From a virus, in IMG/VR virus record IMGVR_UViG_3300037010_000032, positions 1 through 20,618 of that record: 20,618 nucleotides of DNA, one strand, 5' to 3'. Shown piece by piece: positions 697-20,618 of the stretch (positions are counted from its first letter, which is position 1; the number at the start of each line of letters is the position of its first letter). A program made the translations under genes and the position numbers. The notes beneath the pieces were generated by a model that saw only the letters and a program-made list of their open reading frames with translations, was not told the origin of the DNA and did not search any database.

Positions 697-1692
697 TTAT
701 CTCACCTTTCCATCAATGATCCTTAAATTCTTTACCCGGTAGTCACCATTGGCTTCAGCCTCCACGAAAATAAATCCATGATTCCACTTGTTGTAAGGTA
801 GATATTCTGGTGAAAGTCCACACAGGCAGCCCTGGCTAAATGTAGTCACCACATTGCCATGCATATCTTTCTCTGAATGCTCAGATGTTTGATGATGATG
901 GCCAATGATACAAGATGCCTTAGCTTTCATAAACAATCCCCTAGCAGGATTGACTGGTGAGAATACACTGTTGCCGAATTCATGGCCATGCATCACTGCA
1001 AGCTTGCCAATTATCACCTTCTGCTTGCTCTTGATCAGTTGCACACCATACTGCCCAAACTTGAGAATGTGCTGCAGTTCAAAGTCTGTGATTCCTAATA
1101 GCTCAGGAGCTCTCACCTTAAGATAGTTTTCCCATCTCTCCTCATGATTGCCTAACTTAAAATAGATAGGCCCAGGAATGGCTTCATTTAGCGTCTCAAA
1201 GAAGTCTCTTGTCATCTGCAGTTCACCTGATAGTGATCGCAGCCTTGGGTCCTTGATGAATCTTGATGCCTGGTACATGTCAATTGTATCTCCATTCAAG
1301 AATACACAGTTTGCTCCATTCTCAATTCCATAGTTTATGGCTATGCTCAGCGCTTCATTATCTTGATACGGCAAGTGAATATCTGATAGTATCAAGATGC
1401 GATTAGATCCTGCAGGAAATGTGAATGTAGGGATTTCTTCATAGTCACTTTCAGGTAGTGATTTGTTCCATGCCATAGCTTCAATTTTTTGTTCATCAGA
1501 TCTCACGGCTATTGGTGAAGAACAGCTCTTGCCTTTACATTCACCTCTGTAATATCTTATCTTGTTATATACTGCATTGTATTGAATAAACACTTTAGGA
1601 TGTAAGGCCATCAATGCATTAGCTGCTGTACGGCTGCCAATGTTAGGATTGTCTGCTAGAAATTCCTTGATTATTTGTACATCTACCTTCAT
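697..1692 (-). CDS. Metallophosphoesterase with N-terminal HTH-like segment
   Basis: This 331-residue protein carries the full set of calcineurin-like metallophosphoesterase motifs in order: SDIH (D104, H106), GDTID (D135), GNHE (N182, H183), HGH (H235, H237) and GHHH (H265, H267). These bind two metal ions and the phosphate. Residues 1-50 look like a helix-turn-helix (IIKEFL, NIGSRTAANAL, NAVYNKIRYYRG), followed by a short linker with two cysteines. The frame is open for 16 codons further upstream, but the ATG at 1692 overlaps the endolysin stop (ATGA), the junction style used throughout this window, so I chose that start. It may act on nucleic acid because of the HTH-like part, but the substrate is unknown. 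It is the last gene before the terminator. Confidence 0.88.
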   Translation of the reverse strand: MKVDVQIIKEFLADNPNIGSRTAANALMALHPKVFIQYNAVYNKIRYYRGECKGKSCSSPIAVRSDEQKIEAMAWNKSLPESDYEEIPTFTFPAGSNRILILSDIHLPYQDNEALSIAINYGIENGANCVFLNGDTIDMYQASRFIKDPRLRSLSGELQMTRDFFETLNEAIPGPIYFKLGNHEERWENYLKVRAPELLGITDFELQHILKFGQYGVQLIKSKQKVIIGKLAVMHGHEFGNSVFSPVNPARGLFMKAKASCIIGHHHQTSEHSEKDMHGNVVTTFSQGCLCGLSPEYLPYNKWNHGFIFVEAEANGDYRVKNLRIIDGKVR

Positions 1693-2168
1693 GCTGGATG
1701 AATAAAGCCTACAAGCTGCAGTCCATTCATAGCTTTCCATTGATATGTGCGAGTCTTCAATGCCACTTCAATTCCTTCACGGCCACCTGCTTTGTTGGTG
1801 TTGCCTTCAATGCACTTGAAATTCTCGGCAGTTGCCTCCACCACTATGCCAATGTGACCTGTCCATCCCCGGTTGCCGTTCTTTACAGATCTCCAAACTA
1901 CAAGTGATCCAGGCACAGCGGTCTCTGATCCCTTTCTGCCAGCAGCTTCATAGTTCAAATATGTTTTGAATGCTGATGCACTGAATGGCTTAGTATCTTG
2001 ACCTGCTTCTCTCCATACAAGCTCAGCAAAGTAGGCACACCAGGCTTGAGCATTAATAAACCCAACGGTCCGCATCTTAGCATCAAATTCTGGATTTATG
2101 AATCCCATGTTGCCAGGCTTCTCTCTTTGTCCAATGTACTTTGTAGCCACTTCTACTATCCTTTCCAT
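1689..2168 (-). CDS. Endolysin, CHAP/NlpC-P60-like cysteine peptidase or amidase
   Basis: This 159-residue protein is a compact single-domain papain-like peptidoglycan hydrolase. The candidate nucleophile is C44 in AWCAYFAELVW. The catalytic histidine is H105 in GWTGHIGIVVE, and the third polar residue lies in CIEGNTN (E121 or N123). The spacing and the WCA...GHIG...EGNTN order match the CHAP family and its relatives. There is no signal peptide, so it should rely on the holin to reach the cell wall. The gene overlaps the spanin gene upstream by 13 nt and the phosphoesterase gene downstream by 4 nt. Its place after holin and spanin supports a lysis role. Confidence 0.88.
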   Translation of the reverse strand: MERIVEVATKYIGQREKPGNMGFINPEFDAKMRTVGFINAQAWCAYFAELVWREAGQDTKPFSASAFKTYLNYEAAGRKGSETAVPGSLVVWRSVKNGNRGWTGHIGIVVEATAENFKCIEGNTNKAGGREGIEVALKTRTYQWKAMNGLQLVGFIHPA

Positions 2169-10848: not shown

Positions 10849-12058
10849 AAATTTTGATTGCTTCTGCCTGAGTATTCTCTGTGATCAGTTGCAATTCTTC
10901 TGTATTATTGTCAATGTGCTTGTTAATTCTCAGCCTGTTCACTAGCATATACTTGTGCTTGCCTGCAGTAAAGTACACGTTCTCCTTCTTGATGCCTAGC
11001 TTCTCAGCCATTGCATAAACTGGCCCACCATTTGACTGAGTTCTAGCAGTTATTATAAAGATTTCATCATTGGCTGCTAAGAACCTTCGTGCCATGTCCT
11101 GACCTTTGGCTGTAGTCAACGTATCATCATAGTCAAATGAGATTCTTTTCTTTGCGAATTGAGTATTCAGTTGCTTCAATTTTCTGCTAGCCCACTCCAC
11201 ACCTTCATCTCCACCCCATGCTAGCCACATCAATCTGCCGCATCCATCACCAAGTTCTTTCTGGCTGTTCTGTCTGTGACGTTCAAAGCCTGCCATGCGT
11301 GCGATTGTATCTCTACTGATGGCTTCTTTGTTGGCCAATTGATTCGCTCGTGCTTTGCCTACTGGAGTTCCACATTCACCCCATCCATTTTCTTCAGCAT
11401 ACCTTAAGGCTATCTTTGCATTCTCTGATGCTGCTTCTGGATAGTCAGTATATGACTCAGCAAAGGCCATATCTTTGATGCTATCAAGTTCTTTCTGTAT
11501 TGCGGCCATCATCACCTCTTCAGTATTGCCTACATGCTCCAGTACAAAGTCACCTTCAATGGAGAATCCTGTCCACTCTCCATTCTTAGCACGGTTATAT
11601 AGCTCAGTGTTTGGAGTTTTGTAGCTCACTATCCATGATCCATCATTGACATCCTTGAATCTGTCAGGTGCTGTGAATCCTTTGGCTGCATCTACCTGAT
11701 AGCTGTGAATCATGAACAGGTCATCTCTCACCTGATCATGTGAATGCTCAAGATTGATATTATTAAAATTGCCTTTCCTAGCATAGTCATAAATGATGCT
11801 CTTGATAGCCTCCTTTGTGAATACTACATAGTATTCTTCATTTGTTCTGCTGTCGTATCTGTAGATTGGAGTATCTGCGCTGATAGCCACACCACTGATC
11901 ACTTGCTCAACATCATTGAATTCAAAGCGCTTTACATTGGCAAAGGTCTGGAAAGATATCTCATGTGCTGGATCTAGGACCAGGCTGTTGAAGCTCACAG
12001 TTGTATCTGGATTCATCAGATCAATGGAGATTTCGTAAATTGGAATGTTCTTTATCAT
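10847..12058 (-). CDS. Capsid maturation protease fused to a HAD-type phosphatase-like domain
   Basis: This 403-residue protein has three parts. Residues 1-190 resemble XkdF-type prohead serine proteases: a VISGVAISADTPIYRYDSRT segment, candidate histidines in NLEHSHD (H105, H107) and candidate serine S166 in TGFSIEGDF. Residues about 203-298 form a module with YTDYPEAASENAK, CGTPVGKARANQLANKEAIS and GCGRLMWLAWGGDEGVEWA, which I recognise as an accessory part of Bacteroidota phage capsid proteases. Residues about 304-395 carry a HAD-like motif FDYDDTLT (D309, D311), a Thr motif IITART, and a late HIDNN. The protease should trim scaffold and coat during maturation; the HAD-like role is unknown. 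One copy of the 19-nt element lies 4 nt upstream. Confidence 0.8.
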   Translation of the reverse strand: MIKNIPIYEISIDLMNPDTTVSFNSLVLDPAHEISFQTFANVKRFEFNDVEQVISGVAISADTPIYRYDSRTNEEYYVVFTKEAIKSIIYDYARKGNFNNINLEHSHDQVRDDLFMIHSYQVDAAKGFTAPDRFKDVNDGSWIVSYKTPNTELYNRAKNGEWTGFSIEGDFVLEHVGNTEEVMMAAIQKELDSIKDMAFAESYTDYPEAASENAKIALRYAEENGWGECGTPVGKARANQLANKEAISRDTIARMAGFERHRQNSQKELGDGCGRLMWLAWGGDEGVEWASRKLKQLNTQFAKKRISFDYDDTLTTAKGQDMARRFLAANDEIFIITARTQSNGGPVYAMAEKLGIKKENVYFTAGKHKYMLVNRLRINKHIDNNTEELQLITENTQAEAIKI

Positions 12059-12062
12059 ACTC

Positions 12063-12081
12063 TAATATGTATTTTTGTTCT
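12063..12081 (-). promoter_or_regulatory. Conserved 19-nt upstream element, copy B, in the divergent gap
   Basis: The minus strand reads AGAACAAAAATACATATTA, ending 4 nt before the protease ATG. The element takes up 19 of the 23 nt between the two divergent start codons and touches the ATG of the plus-strand gene. With no minus-strand gene for 650 bp upstream, this is the best candidate position for a promoter of the protease-scaffold-capsid unit. Confidence 0.55.
12070..12077 (+). promoter_or_regulatory. Candidate -7 box for the plus-strand gene
   Basis: TATTTTTG matches the Bacteroidota -7 consensus TAnnTTTG exactly and lies 4 nt before the ATG of the plus-strand gene. No clear TTTG is found 17-23 nt upstream. 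If used, transcription would begin at about the ATG, giving a leaderless or nearly leaderless message. The match may also be a by-product of copy B of the 19-nt element on the other strand. Confidence 0.3.
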
Positions 12082-12813
12082 ATGAAATTTGTTTATCCCT
12101 TCAAATATAGGCAAAGCACCTTTGAGATCAGTGAATCTCTGAGATGGCTATACCTTGCATATCCTGATGCAGAAGTCTACATCATTGGAGATGCTCCTGA
12201 CATACACTTGCCGTACGTTCATATTCCGTACACATCTCATCTGCCCTTTGCTGGATGTGATGTCACTGACAAAGTGATGCTGTTCTGTCAGATGATAGGT
12301 GATGAATTCATTCTAATGAATGATGACTTCTTTATCACTGATAAATTTATATTTCACCAGGTGATGAAGAATGGCTATGTCACTATTTCACCAGGGCATT
12401 CAATTACTTATCAACAGGCCTGTGAGAATACTATTGATTTTCTTGCAGCCAATCATCTGGAGTTAATTAATTTTGAATGTCATCAGCCTGTGCTCATCCA
12501 GTCATGTCGTTTCATTGAGCTGTTCAGTCAAGTTCAATATAAAGAATACAATCATCTGCTCAAGTCAATGTACTTTAATACCTGGCCTATGCCATCATAT
12601 CAAGGTGACAATCTCAAGCTGGGCCACTCACTGAACAAAGCAAAAAAATACCTTGATCAATACGGTGCATTCAGCTGTGCAGATTCATTTCTCACAGCTG
12701 AACACATGGATTTTATTAGTACGTACTCAAGCTCTGCTGAGTCTGGACCTTCTGCTGCGTGCCAGTTATGTCACTCTCCAGTACCACCACTTGACTCACC
12801 GGTGGGCCATTAG
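12082..12813 (+). CDS. Stealth-like sugar-phosphate transferase (glycosyltransferase-type), lone plus-strand gene
   Basis: This 243-residue protein shows features of Stealth-family hexose-phosphate transferases: SESLRWLYLAYPDAEVYIIG like the conserved strand-helix before the active site, FILMNDDFFI (NDD at 80-82) like the CR2 motif 'fLylNDDff', and a later ECHQPVLI (H134) like the CR3 histidine region. Stealth enzymes build cell-surface sugar-phosphate polymers; in a phage such an enzyme could change the host surface or decorate virion proteins. I chose the ATG at 12082; the frame is open upstream to a TTG at 12001 inside the protease gene. The last 98 nt run antisense into the tape measure gene, and the residues encoded there (after DFIST) are Ser/Pro-rich and may be uninformative. 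No signal peptide or membrane helix is seen. Confidence 0.7.
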   Translation: MKFVYPFKYRQSTFEISESLRWLYLAYPDAEVYIIGDAPDIHLPYVHIPYTSHLPFAGCDVTDKVMLFCQMIGDEFILMNDDFFITDKFIFHQVMKNGYVTISPGHSITYQQACENTIDFLAANHLELINFECHQPVLIQSCRFIELFSQVQYKEYNHLLKSMYFNTWPMPSYQGDNLKLGHSLNKAKKYLDQYGAFSCADSFLTAEHMDFISTYSSSAESGPSAACQLCHSPVPPLDSPVGH

Positions 12814-15223
12814 ATCCACCAGGCAAAAAATCTGCCAGTGAAGTTGTTTGTGCATTGGTAGTTCCTGATCCACCTAGTGCAGATGCAGATGCTCCAGCCG
12901 TTGCTCCACCTCCCACTTCAGGCATTGCAGGCGCTGTGCCTCCTTCATACTTTGTACTCATCACAGCTGCCAATTGTGCAGCTCCCACTATTCCTGCAGC
13001 AATACCAAATGGAATACCTATAGGAATACCACCACCAGTGGCAATGGATTGCATCACTGCTTGCGCTGTACTGATTGCAATGGATACAAGCTTCAATGCT
13101 TTGTCACGTTTAAACTGTTCACGCTTGATTTTATCTTCTGCATCAAATTGCTTCTTCTGTAGTTGATAGGCAGCCATTGCATATTTTTCATTGATGGCTT
13201 GTTTTTGTGCAGCGGTCAAGTTGGCATTCTTCAATTCATTGGTCTTCTGCGTTTCAAGTTGACTCAGCTGTGCATCTGTATTGGCTTGCATTGCTTTGAG
13301 CTTGTTATCTTGCACCTCATTCATGGCATCATTGATTGCAGATAAAGAGTCAACAGCTTGCGCTGCCACATCCAGTCCAGCGCTTATTGCTGCAGTGTCT
13401 TCTTCAAACTTCTTTTGACTTGCGGCCTTGGCATCTGCTACCTTCTGCTTTTCAATGTCTGCAATTTTCTTTTCTCTTAGAGCCACCATTGCAACAATAG
13501 CAGCATCAAACTGATCCTGCCTAATTAGATTCGCAGCTAGATTGTCCTCAAGAGTTTTGATTTCATCACGCTGTGCATTGTCAAAGTCAATAAGTGCTAG
13601 TTTATACTGATCCAATAAATATCCCTGAATCATTCTTCTTGCATCTCTCTGCTTCTTATATTTTTCTTCTATAGATGCTAGCTCTATCTTATTATATTTA
13701 TCTGCAATATCTGCCAGGGCTTTCTTCTCAGCTAAGTCAATCACACTGATATCTTCACCTTTAGCTAGCGCTCTTTCTCTTAAATCAAAATAATAGGCCC
13801 CTACTTTCTCCTCATCCAATTGGCGTGCTGTCTTCAAGCTGTCATAGTACGCATTCTCTGCAGCCTCAAGGTCCATGATCAGTTGATTCTTCTCCTCAAG
13901 TGCTCTGTCATTTATCTCCTTCTGTTGGTCCGCTAATTTCTTGGCCTGTTCCTTGGCAGCATCTGCAGCATCCTTGTTGGCCGTGATTTGAATTACTTTT
14001 TTCTCAGTCTCAGAATCCTTGACATCCTGATTCATCTTGTTCAGATTGTCCTTGCCTGCAGCTCTTTGCTCTTTGTACATTCCTGACATGAACTTGTTAT
14101 TCTTCATCAGTACATCAAGTGCTTTGATATTATTCTCCACCTCCTTGATTTGCTCTTTTTGGTAGTCAATAGATGCTTGAATTTTTTTCTTCTTTAATTC
14201 AATAGTGCTCAATCCAGCTGCATCAGCCAGGGCAATTTCACGATCAAATTGTTTCTGTCCATTTTCAAATGCTTGCTTCTGAGCTGCTCTAAGTTCACGT
14301 TCTTTCTCCATCTGCCTCTGGATGCGTTGCATTCTTTTGGCATGTGTGGCCGCTCTCTTTTTATCCTCATCATCCTCAACAAGTCCAAGCATCTGCAGTC
14401 CTTTTACGGCTAGCATGATCACACCAATAAATGGCATGAAGATACCTATTACAATTTTTATTCCTGTCCCTAGCTTATTAAACCAGCTGATGGCTCTACC
14501 TACTGCAGCTGTCACCTTGTCCCAGTTAGCAATCAACAAACCAAGGCCCACTACCAACGCACCAATACCAGTGGCAACAAGTGCAAGCCTAAAAACTTTC
14601 AATGCACCAGTGGATGTGCCTACAGCCAATGCATATGCTTTTTCATAGAATGCTCTGAGCTGCATACCAACGACATGCTCCTCATTCAATATGATAGATA
14701 CCTCATTGATTGCATTCATCACACCTTGCACAGCCTGAAGCTTGACCATGGTCTGCATCAATTCTTCATTCTCCACACCAGTCAATGCAATGGCAGATGA
14801 GATTCCTTGGAATACTGCAGCACCTCCTTGCAATGCTCCCATTGCTGTATCTAATTTAACAGTATCTGATGACAAAGCATTCACCTGGCTCTTGATATCA
14901 CCGATGCCATCCTTCAATTGACCTGCAGCTGCAATGGCTGCTTGACCAACAGGTGACTCCATCCCTGCCTGAGCAGCAATGTTCTGGTATTCCTTCATGG
15001 CCTTGGTCATCTCACGCATGGTCAAGCCTCCAGCATCTACCTTTGCATTCAATTCTGTGAGCTTATCAGCGAATACATCAGTGCCTGCACCTTCAGCAAC
15101 AGTGCTCTGCAAGGTATTCACATCCTTGTTCAGACTATTCACTGCCTGATCAAATGATTTTATGTCATTTACACTGCTGCCAGTGTCTACTTTAAGGGAA
15201 AATACTGCTTCTTTTGTAGCCAT
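12716..15223 (-). CDS. Tail tape measure protein
   Basis: This 835-residue protein begins MATKEAVFSLKVDTGSSVND with the usual helical N-terminal region (SFDQAVNSLNKDVNTLQ). Two hydrophobic helices follow at about 211-233 and 255-276, then a long charged coiled coil from about 288 to 680 rich in K, E, A and Q. The end is a Gly/Ala-rich segment (GGGATAGASASALGGSG) and a tail VVVLESDITGTQQKVQTQQS, a type of ending common in tape measures of Bacteroidota phages. It sets tail length and may help DNA cross the inner membrane. The start overlaps the stop of the previous gene by 1 nt (TAATG). The 3' end overlaps the plus-strand gene by 98 nt. Confidence 0.9.
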   Translation of the reverse strand: MATKEAVFSLKVDTGSSVNDIKSFDQAVNSLNKDVNTLQSTVAEGAGTDVFADKLTELNAKVDAGGLTMREMTKAMKEYQNIAAQAGMESPVGQAAIAAAGQLKDGIGDIKSQVNALSSDTVKLDTAMGALQGGAAVFQGISSAIALTGVENEELMQTMVKLQAVQGVMNAINEVSIILNEEHVVGMQLRAFYEKAYALAVGTSTGALKVFRLALVATGIGALVVGLGLLIANWDKVTAAVGRAISWFNKLGTGIKIVIGIFMPFIGVIMLAVKGLQMLGLVEDDEDKKRAATHAKRMQRIQRQMEKERELRAAQKQAFENGQKQFDREIALADAAGLSTIELKKKKIQASIDYQKEQIKEVENNIKALDVLMKNNKFMSGMYKEQRAAGKDNLNKMNQDVKDSETEKKVIQITANKDAADAAKEQAKKLADQQKEINDRALEEKNQLIMDLEAAENAYYDSLKTARQLDEEKVGAYYFDLRERALAKGEDISVIDLAEKKALADIADKYNKIELASIEEKYKKQRDARRMIQGYLLDQYKLALIDFDNAQRDEIKTLEDNLAANLIRQDQFDAAIVAMVALREKKIADIEKQKVADAKAASQKKFEEDTAAISAGLDVAAQAVDSLSAINDAMNEVQDNKLKAMQANTDAQLSQLETQKTNELKNANLTAAQKQAINEKYAMAAYQLQKKQFDAEDKIKREQFKRDKALKLVSIAISTAQAVMQSIATGGGIPIGIPFGIAAGIVGAAQLAAVMSTKYEGGTAPAMPEVGGGATAGASASALGGSGTTNAQTTSLADFLPGGSNGPPVSQVVVLESDITGTQQKVQTQQSLSTY

Positions 15224-18694: not shown

Positions 18695-19236
18695 TTTTCT
18701 GTATTTTTTGTAAAGGATACGTTAAAAATAAGACCTGTCACTGTAGCCAAGTCTGATGCTATCTTATTGAGCACATCATCTGTCATGACATTCTCTGTTA
18801 TTTTCTTAGGCTGCAATCCATGATGCTTGATACTGGATGCAGTTGCATATGCCTTTGACATGCTACCACCTTTCCACTGCTGTATGGCATTGGCCATGTT
18901 TGCACTCACATACGGTGTGCGAAATGAATATGCACTACCTGATACTGTTGGCCGCTTGTAGTTGTATCCGGGCACATTAGGCAATGCATTCACACCTTGA
19001 TCCTGGAACAAATAGTACTGGTCCGCTTGTATCTCAAATGAGAATGCTCCAGTAGGCATATATACCACTGACTGCATTAATGCTCCAGTATTCATGACAT
19101 TAGCACTGATATACTCCTTGAAGTCTTCAGTCACTTTATTGGCTATGTCTAAGATTAACTTTTCATAGGCTGTCTCAGGCTGAGATAGCTCCTGCTGAGA
19201 TATACCTAGTGAGTCAAGAAAGTCAAGTTCTGCCAT
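18685..19236 (-). CDS. HK97 gp10-like neck/tail completion protein
   Basis: This 183-residue protein has an N-terminal helix (YEKLILDIANKVTEDFKEYI), a core strand-turn pattern (TGALMQSVVYMPTGAFSFEI, ADQYYLFQDQGVN), a Gly/Pro loop and a C-terminal helix. The 'YYxFxDxGV' motif followed by a loop is like the conserved region of HK97 gp10 proteins, which form part of the head-tail connection. Its start overlaps the end of the frameshifted chaperone frame by 14 nt. A copy of the 19-nt element ends 7 nt upstream of its ATG. Confidence 0.7.
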   Translation of the reverse strand: MAELDFLDSLGISQQELSQPETAYEKLILDIANKVTEDFKEYISANVMNTGALMQSVVYMPTGAFSFEIQADQYYLFQDQGVNALPNVPGYNYKRPTVSGSAYSFRTPYVSANMANAIQQWKGGSMSKAYATASSIKHHGLQPKKITENVMTDDVLNKIASDLATVTGLIFNVSFTKNTEKWQ

Positions 19237-20031
19237 GCTTACTTAATATGTAATCTTGTTCTGATTTTAGCTTGAAGTAGTTCAGCCAAAACAATGTCTT
19301 TATGTACGGCTGCCTCGTAATCTCATCCACATCCTTCTGAAGCTTCTCAGCCATGTGGACCAGAAGCCCTGTCCAGATGAACCACTCTGAGTCATTTCTT
19401 TCATCTGAGCTGCTGTTGTCTCTTTCAGCATCTTCGTCTGATTCTTCATCCTGATTATCTGGATCTCCAAGATAGCGAGCTTCCGCTGCTCTGATTGCCG
19501 CAAAAAAAAAGCGAAGAAGTCAATAAATTCATCACCAGGGAAAGCCTTCTTGAATATCTCCTTGCGCTTGACTGATGGATTCAGCACCTTGCCACGGTCA
19601 TCTTCTTGAGCATACTCCATGCCCTCTTCAATATAGCAGATGGCCAATGCTCCACATGGATCCTCTTGTACAGATTCAATCAGTTTTAAGTCAATGATCT
19701 GTCCAGTGCTCATCACTGAGATATCTGGCTCAAAGAGATACACCACATCATCAATCACCACTTTGCCTGTAGGCTTCTCCTTCTGAACGTATGTGCCGAG
19801 TATAGTCAGTATATGCTTGCTGCAGCTCAGTACATCATCAATGTGTGCCTTGCGGACCTTGCTCACTGATAGGCCGCTGAAGATGCTGATGAGTTGACAT
19901 TGAAAGTCAAGTGATGTCATCATGTCTTCTGCAGCTTCTTGATACACTGGTGCCACCATCAGCCACTTGGCCATCATGTCAGGTGTGCAGTCTTGAAGTG
20001 TTGCTGGTAGTTTAATCTCTATTTGTTTCAT
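19223..20031 (-). CDS. Frameshifted (-1) long form of the tail assembly chaperone, about 269 aa
   Basis: Residues 1-176 are shared with the short form. After a -1 shift at the T9 run (19510-19502) the frame stays open for 93 codons and ends at a TGA at 19225-19223, just inside the next gene. The added part begins FAAIRAAEARYLGDPDNQ and has an acidic linker (DEESDEDAERDNSSSDERND). It closes with a helical domain (EWFIWTGLLVHMAEKLQK, DEITRQPYIKTLFWLNYFK). It accounts for the 63 nt between the short form's stop and the next gene. A short and a long product from one slippery site is known for tail assembly chaperones such as lambda gpG/gpGT. A sequencing error in the homopolymer is the alternative. 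Confidence 0.6.
19244..19262 (-). promoter_or_regulatory. Conserved 19-nt upstream element, copy A
   Basis: The minus strand reads AGAACAAGATTACATATTA and ends 7 nt before the ATG of the neck protein gene. It lies inside the -1 frame of the chaperone gene (encoding SEQDYIL), so the sequence could be constrained by both uses. Confidence 0.45.
19300..20031 (-). CDS. Putative tail assembly chaperone, short (unshifted) form
   Basis: This 243-residue product begins MKQIEIKLPATLQDCTPDMM. It is mostly helical up to about residue 175 (AKWLMVAPVYQEAAEDMM, DDVLSCSKHILTILGTYV, IIDLKLIESVQEDPCGALAI). Beyond the T9 run the unshifted frame gives 67 residues (RQSEQRKLAILEIQI..., ending RMWMRLRGSRT) with basic, Met/Arg-rich composition unlike the rest. 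The gene follows the terminase (ATGA overlap) and precedes the neck and tail genes, the place where tail chaperones often lie in siphoviruses. The function is inferred from position and the frameshift signal; I do not recognise the domain. Confidence 0.6.
   Translation of the reverse strand: MKQIEIKLPATLQDCTPDMMAKWLMVAPVYQEAAEDMMTSLDFQCQLISIFSGLSVSKVRKAHIDDVLSCSKHILTILGTYVQKEKPTGKVVIDDVVYLFEPDISVMSTGQIIDLKLIESVQEDPCGALAICYIEEGMEYAQEDDRGKVLNPSVKRKEIFKKAFPGDEFIDFFAFFLRQSEQRKLAILEIQIIRMKNQTKMLKETTAAQMKEMTQSGSSGQGFWSTWLRSFRRMWMRLRGSRT
19502..19510 (-). other. Slippery T9 site for -1 ribosomal frameshifting
   Basis: Nine T on the minus strand lie in the frame GCT TTT TTT TTG. This contains T TTT TTT, a canonical slippery heptamer at which both tRNAs can re-pair one base back. 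About 15 nt further on, GAGC and GCTC could form a 4-bp hairpin with a 7-nt loop, a weak stimulatory structure at best. Confidence 0.6.
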
Positions 20032-20618
20032 GCTCTTAATATCTTATATTTTCCTTTCATCCTGTAGTGGCGAAGTGAGTGCCATGCTAGTGCTGTGCTC
20101 ATCACTCCATCATCATGCATACCTGAAGGTGCACTGTACTGCACTTTCCGTGTGTTTATATTGTAAATATAGGTAAAGTTTTCAAGCTCATCAATCAGCC
20201 ATGAATGATTCATGATGCGGATGTCATTCTGCTCAAATGCCAGGGCCAAGTCTTCAATTAACATTGGCTTGCTCTTAGATGTCGTAGTGAAGGGATATAC
20301 ATTGTTCCTGCACTTTGTCTGTAGCATCTCAAAGAACACATCACCTTGATTGTTGACCTCCACCACAGTGACTGCATTAAAGCGCTTGATCACATCAGCC
20401 ACCTTGTCAATGATCTTGCTCCACTCATCTTGTCGCCATCTCTCTACATAGATCATGTGGCCATGCTCATTGAGAATAGTCAGGACCGTGTAGTCATCTG
20501 CTCTACCAATATCAAGGCCAGCATATGCTTTGCCACTTGGCTCTGATGCAGCTACAGATGTACGAACATTCCTGAACAGCCCAGATGCATTGTCAATAAA
20601 TTCTGCTAAGTATTCCTG
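20028..20618 (-). CDS. Terminase large subunit, C-terminal nuclease domain (5' end outside window)
   Basis: The frame is open from the right edge for 196 residues. Visible residues 33-48 (AGLDIGRADDYTVLTI) are the first acidic motif (D36) of the RNase H-like nuclease of phage large terminases. E87 in VTVVEVNNQGD is the second acidic site, and MHDDGVMSTALAWH (D169, D170) is the third. This domain cuts concatemeric DNA during packaging; the ATPase domain must lie upstream, beyond the window. The stop TGA overlaps the next ATG (ATGA). Confidence 0.9.
   Translation of the reverse strand, partial: QEYLAEFIDNASGLFRNVRTSVAASEPSGKAYAGLDIGRADDYTVLTILNEHGHMIYVERWRQDEWSKIIDKVADVIKRFNAVTVVEVNNQGDVFFEMLQTKCRNNVYPFTTTSKSKPMLIEDLALAFEQNDIRIMNHSWLIDELENFTYIYNINTRKVQYSAPSGMHDDGVMSTALAWHSLRHYRMKGKYKILRA

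Follow-up and report, generated by a model that had tools for sequence, protein, structure and literature searches.

Background

The production of two protein forms from the tail chaperone gene is a hallmark of long-tailed phages, and it is attributed to the ribosome. In the case of dnaX, homologous genes use either polymerase slippage or ribosomal frameshifting. That tail chaperones come in two forms is well established, and the published descriptions are of a ribosomal mechanism (PMC5009743; PMC10885494). As for slippage, a run of nine A or T is the length where selection against it is evident in many bacterial genomes (PMC1088944), and the RNA polymerase of E. coli slips on seven or more T, with a preference for poly(T) and for insertion, the T9 run of mxiE being one example (PMC6260861). 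Among the papers listed by a literature search of incomplete coverage, none reports slippage or realignment during transcription for tail chaperones or for phage tails.

Organisation of the locus

The window, i.e. the whole stretch of DNA that was analysed, is the 20,618-base virus record IMGVR_UViG_3300037010_000032. The best reading of its sequence is that it belongs to a siphophage-type virus and carries a tail assembly chaperone gene resembling lambda G/GT. The relatives fall into two clades, of which clade 1 is the window's own and clade 2 includes Nonlabens phage P12024S. The features of the locus are as follows.

20028..20618, minus strand: C-terminal part of TerL (PHROG 38/2, E about 1e-9; tblastn to phage TerL genes)
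20031..19300, minus strand: ORF of the putative chaperone gene, 243 codons, directly downstream of TerL
19504..20031, minus strand: G-like common N-terminal part, 176 aa before the slip site (AlphaFold2 pLDDT 88; sub-threshold Phage_TAC_7 match in relatives)
19502..19510, minus strand: T9 slip site, read in the 0 frame as GCT TTT TTT TTG; T9 without exception in clade 1, and in clade 2 either T9 or T10, with any phase
19300..19503, minus strand: 0-frame C-terminal tail of the short form and stop codon, 67 residues, basic; constrained jointly with the -1 frame
19223..19504, minus strand: T-like -1-frame extension, 93 codons plus TGA; acidic disordered linker, then helices
18685..19236, minus strand: next gene, 183 aa; 14 nt of the -1 ORF overlap its start
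12716..15223, minus strand: putative tape measure protein, from length, position and composition (marginal PHROG tape-measure match, E 0.061)

The first-pass annotation had described a T9 run followed by a -1 frame with 93 open codons whose end lies 14 nt inside the next gene, and an unshifted frame that ends after 67 residues and leaves a gap of 63 nt. All these numbers hold: the -1 frame is open from the T9 to the TGA at 19225-19223, with the ATG of the next ORF at 19236, and the 0 frame stops at 19300, 67 residues past the core, after which 63 nt remain before the next ORF. Three genes separate the chaperone gene from the putative tape measure gene. Between the tape measure and the protease genes lies an ORF of 270 aa (12001-12813, plus strand), without any Pfam match and on the strand opposite to all the structural genes. 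The window also contains genes for a calcineurin-like phosphoesterase (697-1740, minus strand) and for a CHAP-domain, endolysin-like protein (1689-2168, minus strand); a metallo-dependent phosphatase gene is carried by P12024S too.

Identity of the gene and relationship to phage P12024S

The G part gave a confident AlphaFold2 model (mean pLDDT 88), and the extension was predicted as an acidic linker of low confidence followed by helices. Nothing significant was found when the model of the G part was compared with the PDB by Foldseek, and a profile search of the PDB sequences returned short repeat-protein matches only, which we took as spurious. Searches with tblastn of the phage records, using the 243-aa protein and the relative L076, were likewise without a match. 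In a viral structure library the G part matched gp38 of P12024S along with other proteins from flavobacterial phages and from uncultured ones, and the link between this phage and the gene of the window was found by structure comparison only. Family matches stayed below their cutoffs: Pfam Phage_TAC_7 was matched in 7/39 representatives (best E 0.002, under the curated cutoff), and PHROG 166, annotated as tail protein, in clade 2 (E 0.003, sub-threshold). As is characteristic of G/GT, an N-terminal protein continues here, by way of an overlapping and conserved -1 frame, into a trans-frame extension, and on this organisation and the sub-threshold matches the gene is most likely a tail assembly chaperone.

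In P12024S, gp38 follows directly after TerL and has a T9 run, and the -1 extension beyond it spans gp39, which is annotated separately. The two genes make up one frameshifted pair around the T9 (NC_018271, L302, 23136-23830), and the same is the case in P12024L (L304); gp39 is currently annotated as an independent gene of 55 aa whose start lies inside the extension. The G parts of the window and P12024S share 12% identity in the structural alignment. Clade 2 is homologous to the window's clade with an hhalign probability of 98% (E 1e-13), and the extension profiles match more weakly (46%, E 2e-4). The protease, capsid, tube-like and portal proteins of the window match gp01, gp02, gp03 and gp06 of P12024S, the "tube" label coming from position and composition, and their order is identical when the P12024S record is read circularly. 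Because of this synteny, a position right after the terminase with the tape measure further downstream, which had been called less usual, is normal in the lineage.

The best explanation is that the virus belongs to the P12024S lineage, whose members infect Bacteroidota where the host is known; the cultured members of clade 2, P12024S and P12024L, infect a marine Persicivirga. The clade-2 relatives in viral contigs are represented by the best 80 of at least 571. The clade-2 profile had no match in 388 genomes from the phylum of the MAG G011, and only a single one of the loci matching the window's clade came from a MAG. In phages of Olleya, Riemerella, Bacteroides and Cellulophaga the genes around TerL are arranged differently, with no obvious counterpart. 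A weak hit to Flavobacterium phage 6H led to its gp10, which we rejected as it has no convincing equivalent of the frame switch.

Conservation of the run and of both frames

The loci of clade 1 were collected by protein searches that were blind to the run, at first 51 and then 80 + 80, these being the best 80 loci of each search. In 217/217 locus records that span the site (duplicates included and contigs partly shared) the run is a T9 of unchanged phase and the extension lies in the -1 frame, and 77 further loci, some of which overlap the earlier contigs, agree. Exactly T9 is found also among L076, L227 and their kin, which form a subclade at 34-37% identity, so that the -1 ORF and the T9 are kept together across 34-100% identity. 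The codons of the run are always NNT TTT TTT TT[G/C] in the 39/39 representatives (<95% amino acid identity), where the codon before is GCT, GGT, AGT or AAT and the one after is TTG or TTC, with TTA in two later loci. In the upstream part of these genes, Phe is encoded by TTT in 43% of cases, Ala by GCT in 26%, Gly by GGT in 28% and Leu by TTG in 25%. Since the phase is uniform in all loci while TTT and TTG are used at 43% and 25% only, the conservation of the T9 is more than chance. In 14 clade-1 loci (153,755 bases) A/T runs of eight or more are nearly absent, with two of eight and fourteen of nine, the latter being one per locus, as expected from the chaperone site alone.

Clade-1 loci lacking the run are either contigs that end before the site or the deletion in L049 (3683-4800) and L161, which are from the same contig; here the slip site is gone and the frame of the G part meets a stop codon ahead of the extension, which reflects a defective genome or a misassembly. 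L191 has an intact T9 and a frame error upstream of it. The first-pass annotation had suggested that relatives be examined for both frames and the run, and named as evidence against a switch either a run of 7 or 10 T or a long frame that is continuous across a broken run; both frames and the run are kept in the 217/217 records and the 77 further loci, and a search of clade 1 for the contrary cases gave none.

In the overlap, changes silent in one frame only were, relative to opportunity, 0.78 (silent in the -1 frame) and 0.60 (silent in the 0 frame), and those altering both were 0.27; these figures are raw counts over related pairs and carry no claim of significance. The changes silent in a single frame are thus much commoner, and selection therefore appears to act on both the tail of the short form and the extension of the long form. 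In the window's clade the dual-coded 0-frame tail varies in length between 41 and 73 residues.

Could the -1 ORF be a separate gene with its own start, in the way that gp39 of P12024S has been annotated? No ATG precedes the folded part in the -1 frame in 38/39 representatives, and no ATG, GTG or TTG in 37/39, which together with a conservation of the extension that starts at the T run makes this reading very improbable, and internal initiation of the -1 ORF unlikely. Another possibility is that the long frame is simply the whole gene, interrupted by an error of sequencing or assembly, as some sequencing methods do err at homopolymers, but the length is the same in every independent clade-1 assembly across the site, T9 is found also in the records of the cultured P12024S and P12024L, and both frames are constrained in the overlap. 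We find an error or a simple indel hardly credible and treat both as excluded. The earlier proposal that the likely tail chaperone gene makes a short and a long form by a programmed -1 switch at the T9 is supported.

Run length and codon phase

Within clade 1, polymerase slippage and ribosomal frameshifting cannot be told apart at any position silent in both frames, and the argument about mechanism is for that reason based mainly on clade 2. There, all of 126 distinct sequences have a run of 9 or 10 T and an extension in the -1 frame, and all three codon phases occur. Runs of 7, 8 or 11 T were found in 0/80 clade-2 representatives (the best 80 of at least 571). If the T's beyond a core xxT TTT TTT are counted to the left (L) and to the right (R), the (L,R) states of clade 2 are (1,1), (1,2), (2,1), (2,0) and (0,3), and that of the window's clade is (0,2); over the two clades all six combinations of phase and length for 9 and 10 T are present, and those giving 7, 8, 11 or 12 T, e.g. 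(0,0), (0,1), (1,0) and (2,2), are absent from the sequences of both.

A tree of both clades built with the run excluded (119 rows, a quick tree in which many forks are weakly supported) requires at least 12 changes of phase or length state, and in the well-supported groups L442/L426 and L417/L398 one side of the run grew while the other shrank. When R was permuted over L in clade 2, a mean of 8.7/80 sequences fell outside 9-10 T versus 0 observed, and zero was reached in 0/100,000 permutations, a procedure that ignores relatedness. After the core, Leu is encoded in the zero frame by CTG only when the run extends 5' by two, and otherwise by TTG or TTA. Other T or A runs in the clade-2 loci are far more often 7 and 8 than 9-10 long, and base composition would therefore favour shorter runs. 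Taken together, the aligned sequences show that the length of the run is conserved and that the codon phase drifts.

The locus could be phase-variable, with changes of run length in the DNA that toggle the long form, since homopolymers of 9-10 are mutable and both T9 and T10 occur in clade 2. The T10 relatives nevertheless keep the extension in the -1 frame, and clade 1 has no length variation, so that a contingency locus is highly unlikely.

Programmed -1 ribosomal frameshifting, in which slippage of tandem Phe tRNAs on T TTT TTT (or T TTT TTG) gives the same GT fusion, deserves more weight. It is the known mechanism in lambda-type tail chaperones (PMC5009743), clade 1 never loses the wobble T of the codon before, as a heptamer demands, and the heptamer is there in every sequence, although this is automatic in any T9; a ribosomal slip may contribute. 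However, a heptamer needs only 7 T, yet T7 and T8 occur in none of the sequences collected from either clade, and 5' additions, which create no further slippery tandem, substitute for 3' extension. Stimulators are not conserved either: RNAalifold found no covarying pair downstream in either clade (pseudoknots being outside the model), an SD-like motif upstream of the run is present in 6/39 representatives only, and in Flavobacterium johnsoniae SD sequences are rarely used (PMC8710568). A stem CTCGCTAT...ATAGCGAG, about 22 nt after the T9, was seen in L227, L076, L058, L132, L213 and others, but it is not family-wide, and we rejected it as a stimulator as it is missing from other relatives, the window included; it is possibly a by-product of the dual coding. 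The T run as a terminator was also rejected, there being no terminator-like site.

A conserved length of 9-10 T irrespective of phase, in the absence of conserved stimulators, points to RNA-polymerase slippage, and the sequences have the conserved A/T homopolymer of about nine or more at the frame transition that is characteristic of it. We therefore consider slippage of the polymerase at the run to be the probable mechanism, and ribosomal frameshifting in its place rather unlikely. Of the first-pass annotation, the programmed switch into the -1 frame with its two forms stands, and slippage at the T TTT TTT heptamer, in the form proposed, is not supported. Against slippage it can be said that the cited data are from enterobacterial and T7 RNA polymerases and not from Bacteroidota, and that the E. 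coli enzyme slips on 7 T, so a need for nine is not predicted for every polymerase.

A model for the switch

In the mechanism we infer, most transcripts would carry U9 and be translated into the short form, with the G-like core and a tail of 67 residues. On a fraction of its passes over the run the RNA polymerase would realign and add one U, which shifts reading to the -1 frame and leads to a product identical with that of a ribosomal slip, so that the mRNA GCU UUU UUU UUU GCG would yield the long form with the G core, the acidic linker and the helical T domain. If the parts act as they do in lambda, the tape measure would be coated by the G part and tail-tube protein would be brought in by the T part, the long form being a minority in a fixed ratio.

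For the lineage at large, which is siphophage-type and widespread, with hundreds of environmental contigs, we hold it likely, if a shade less firmly than for slippage as such, that the ratio of short to long chaperone is set by RNA-polymerase slippage on T9 or T10, under selection for length and with a drifting phase. If this is true, the product has been conserved and the switch is placed in transcription instead of translation, a parallel to dnaX, and annotators could find missing long forms such as the one that includes the now separate gp39 of P12024S. Comparing run length with codon phase would also be a simple comparative test of polymerase slippage versus ribosomal frameshifting ahead of experiments.

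Comparison with known systems

The gene resembles lambda gpG/gpGT in that a common N-terminal domain has a -1 switch near its end and a C-terminal extension as the second form, within a tail module. Unlike the lambda gene it lies directly after TerL and three genes from the putative tape measure gene, its 0-frame tail of 41-73 residues in the window's clade is dual-coded, its T9/T10 run has no conserved stimulators, and the sequence similarity is not above threshold. Closer are P12024S and P12024L (genus Inhavirus; phages of Nonlabens, = Persicivirga), which share the position after TerL, the T9, the -1 extension and the head gene order; they differ in the codon phase of their T9 and in that gp39 has been annotated apart. 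In having an A/T homopolymer of nine or more that leads to two protein forms, the locus is like Shigella mxiE (T9) and spa13, Citrobacter tssM (A11) and Thermus dnaX (A9). Those genes are bacterial or carried on plasmids, and RNA or protein evidence exists for them, whereas the case for this likely phage tail chaperone is a comparative one.
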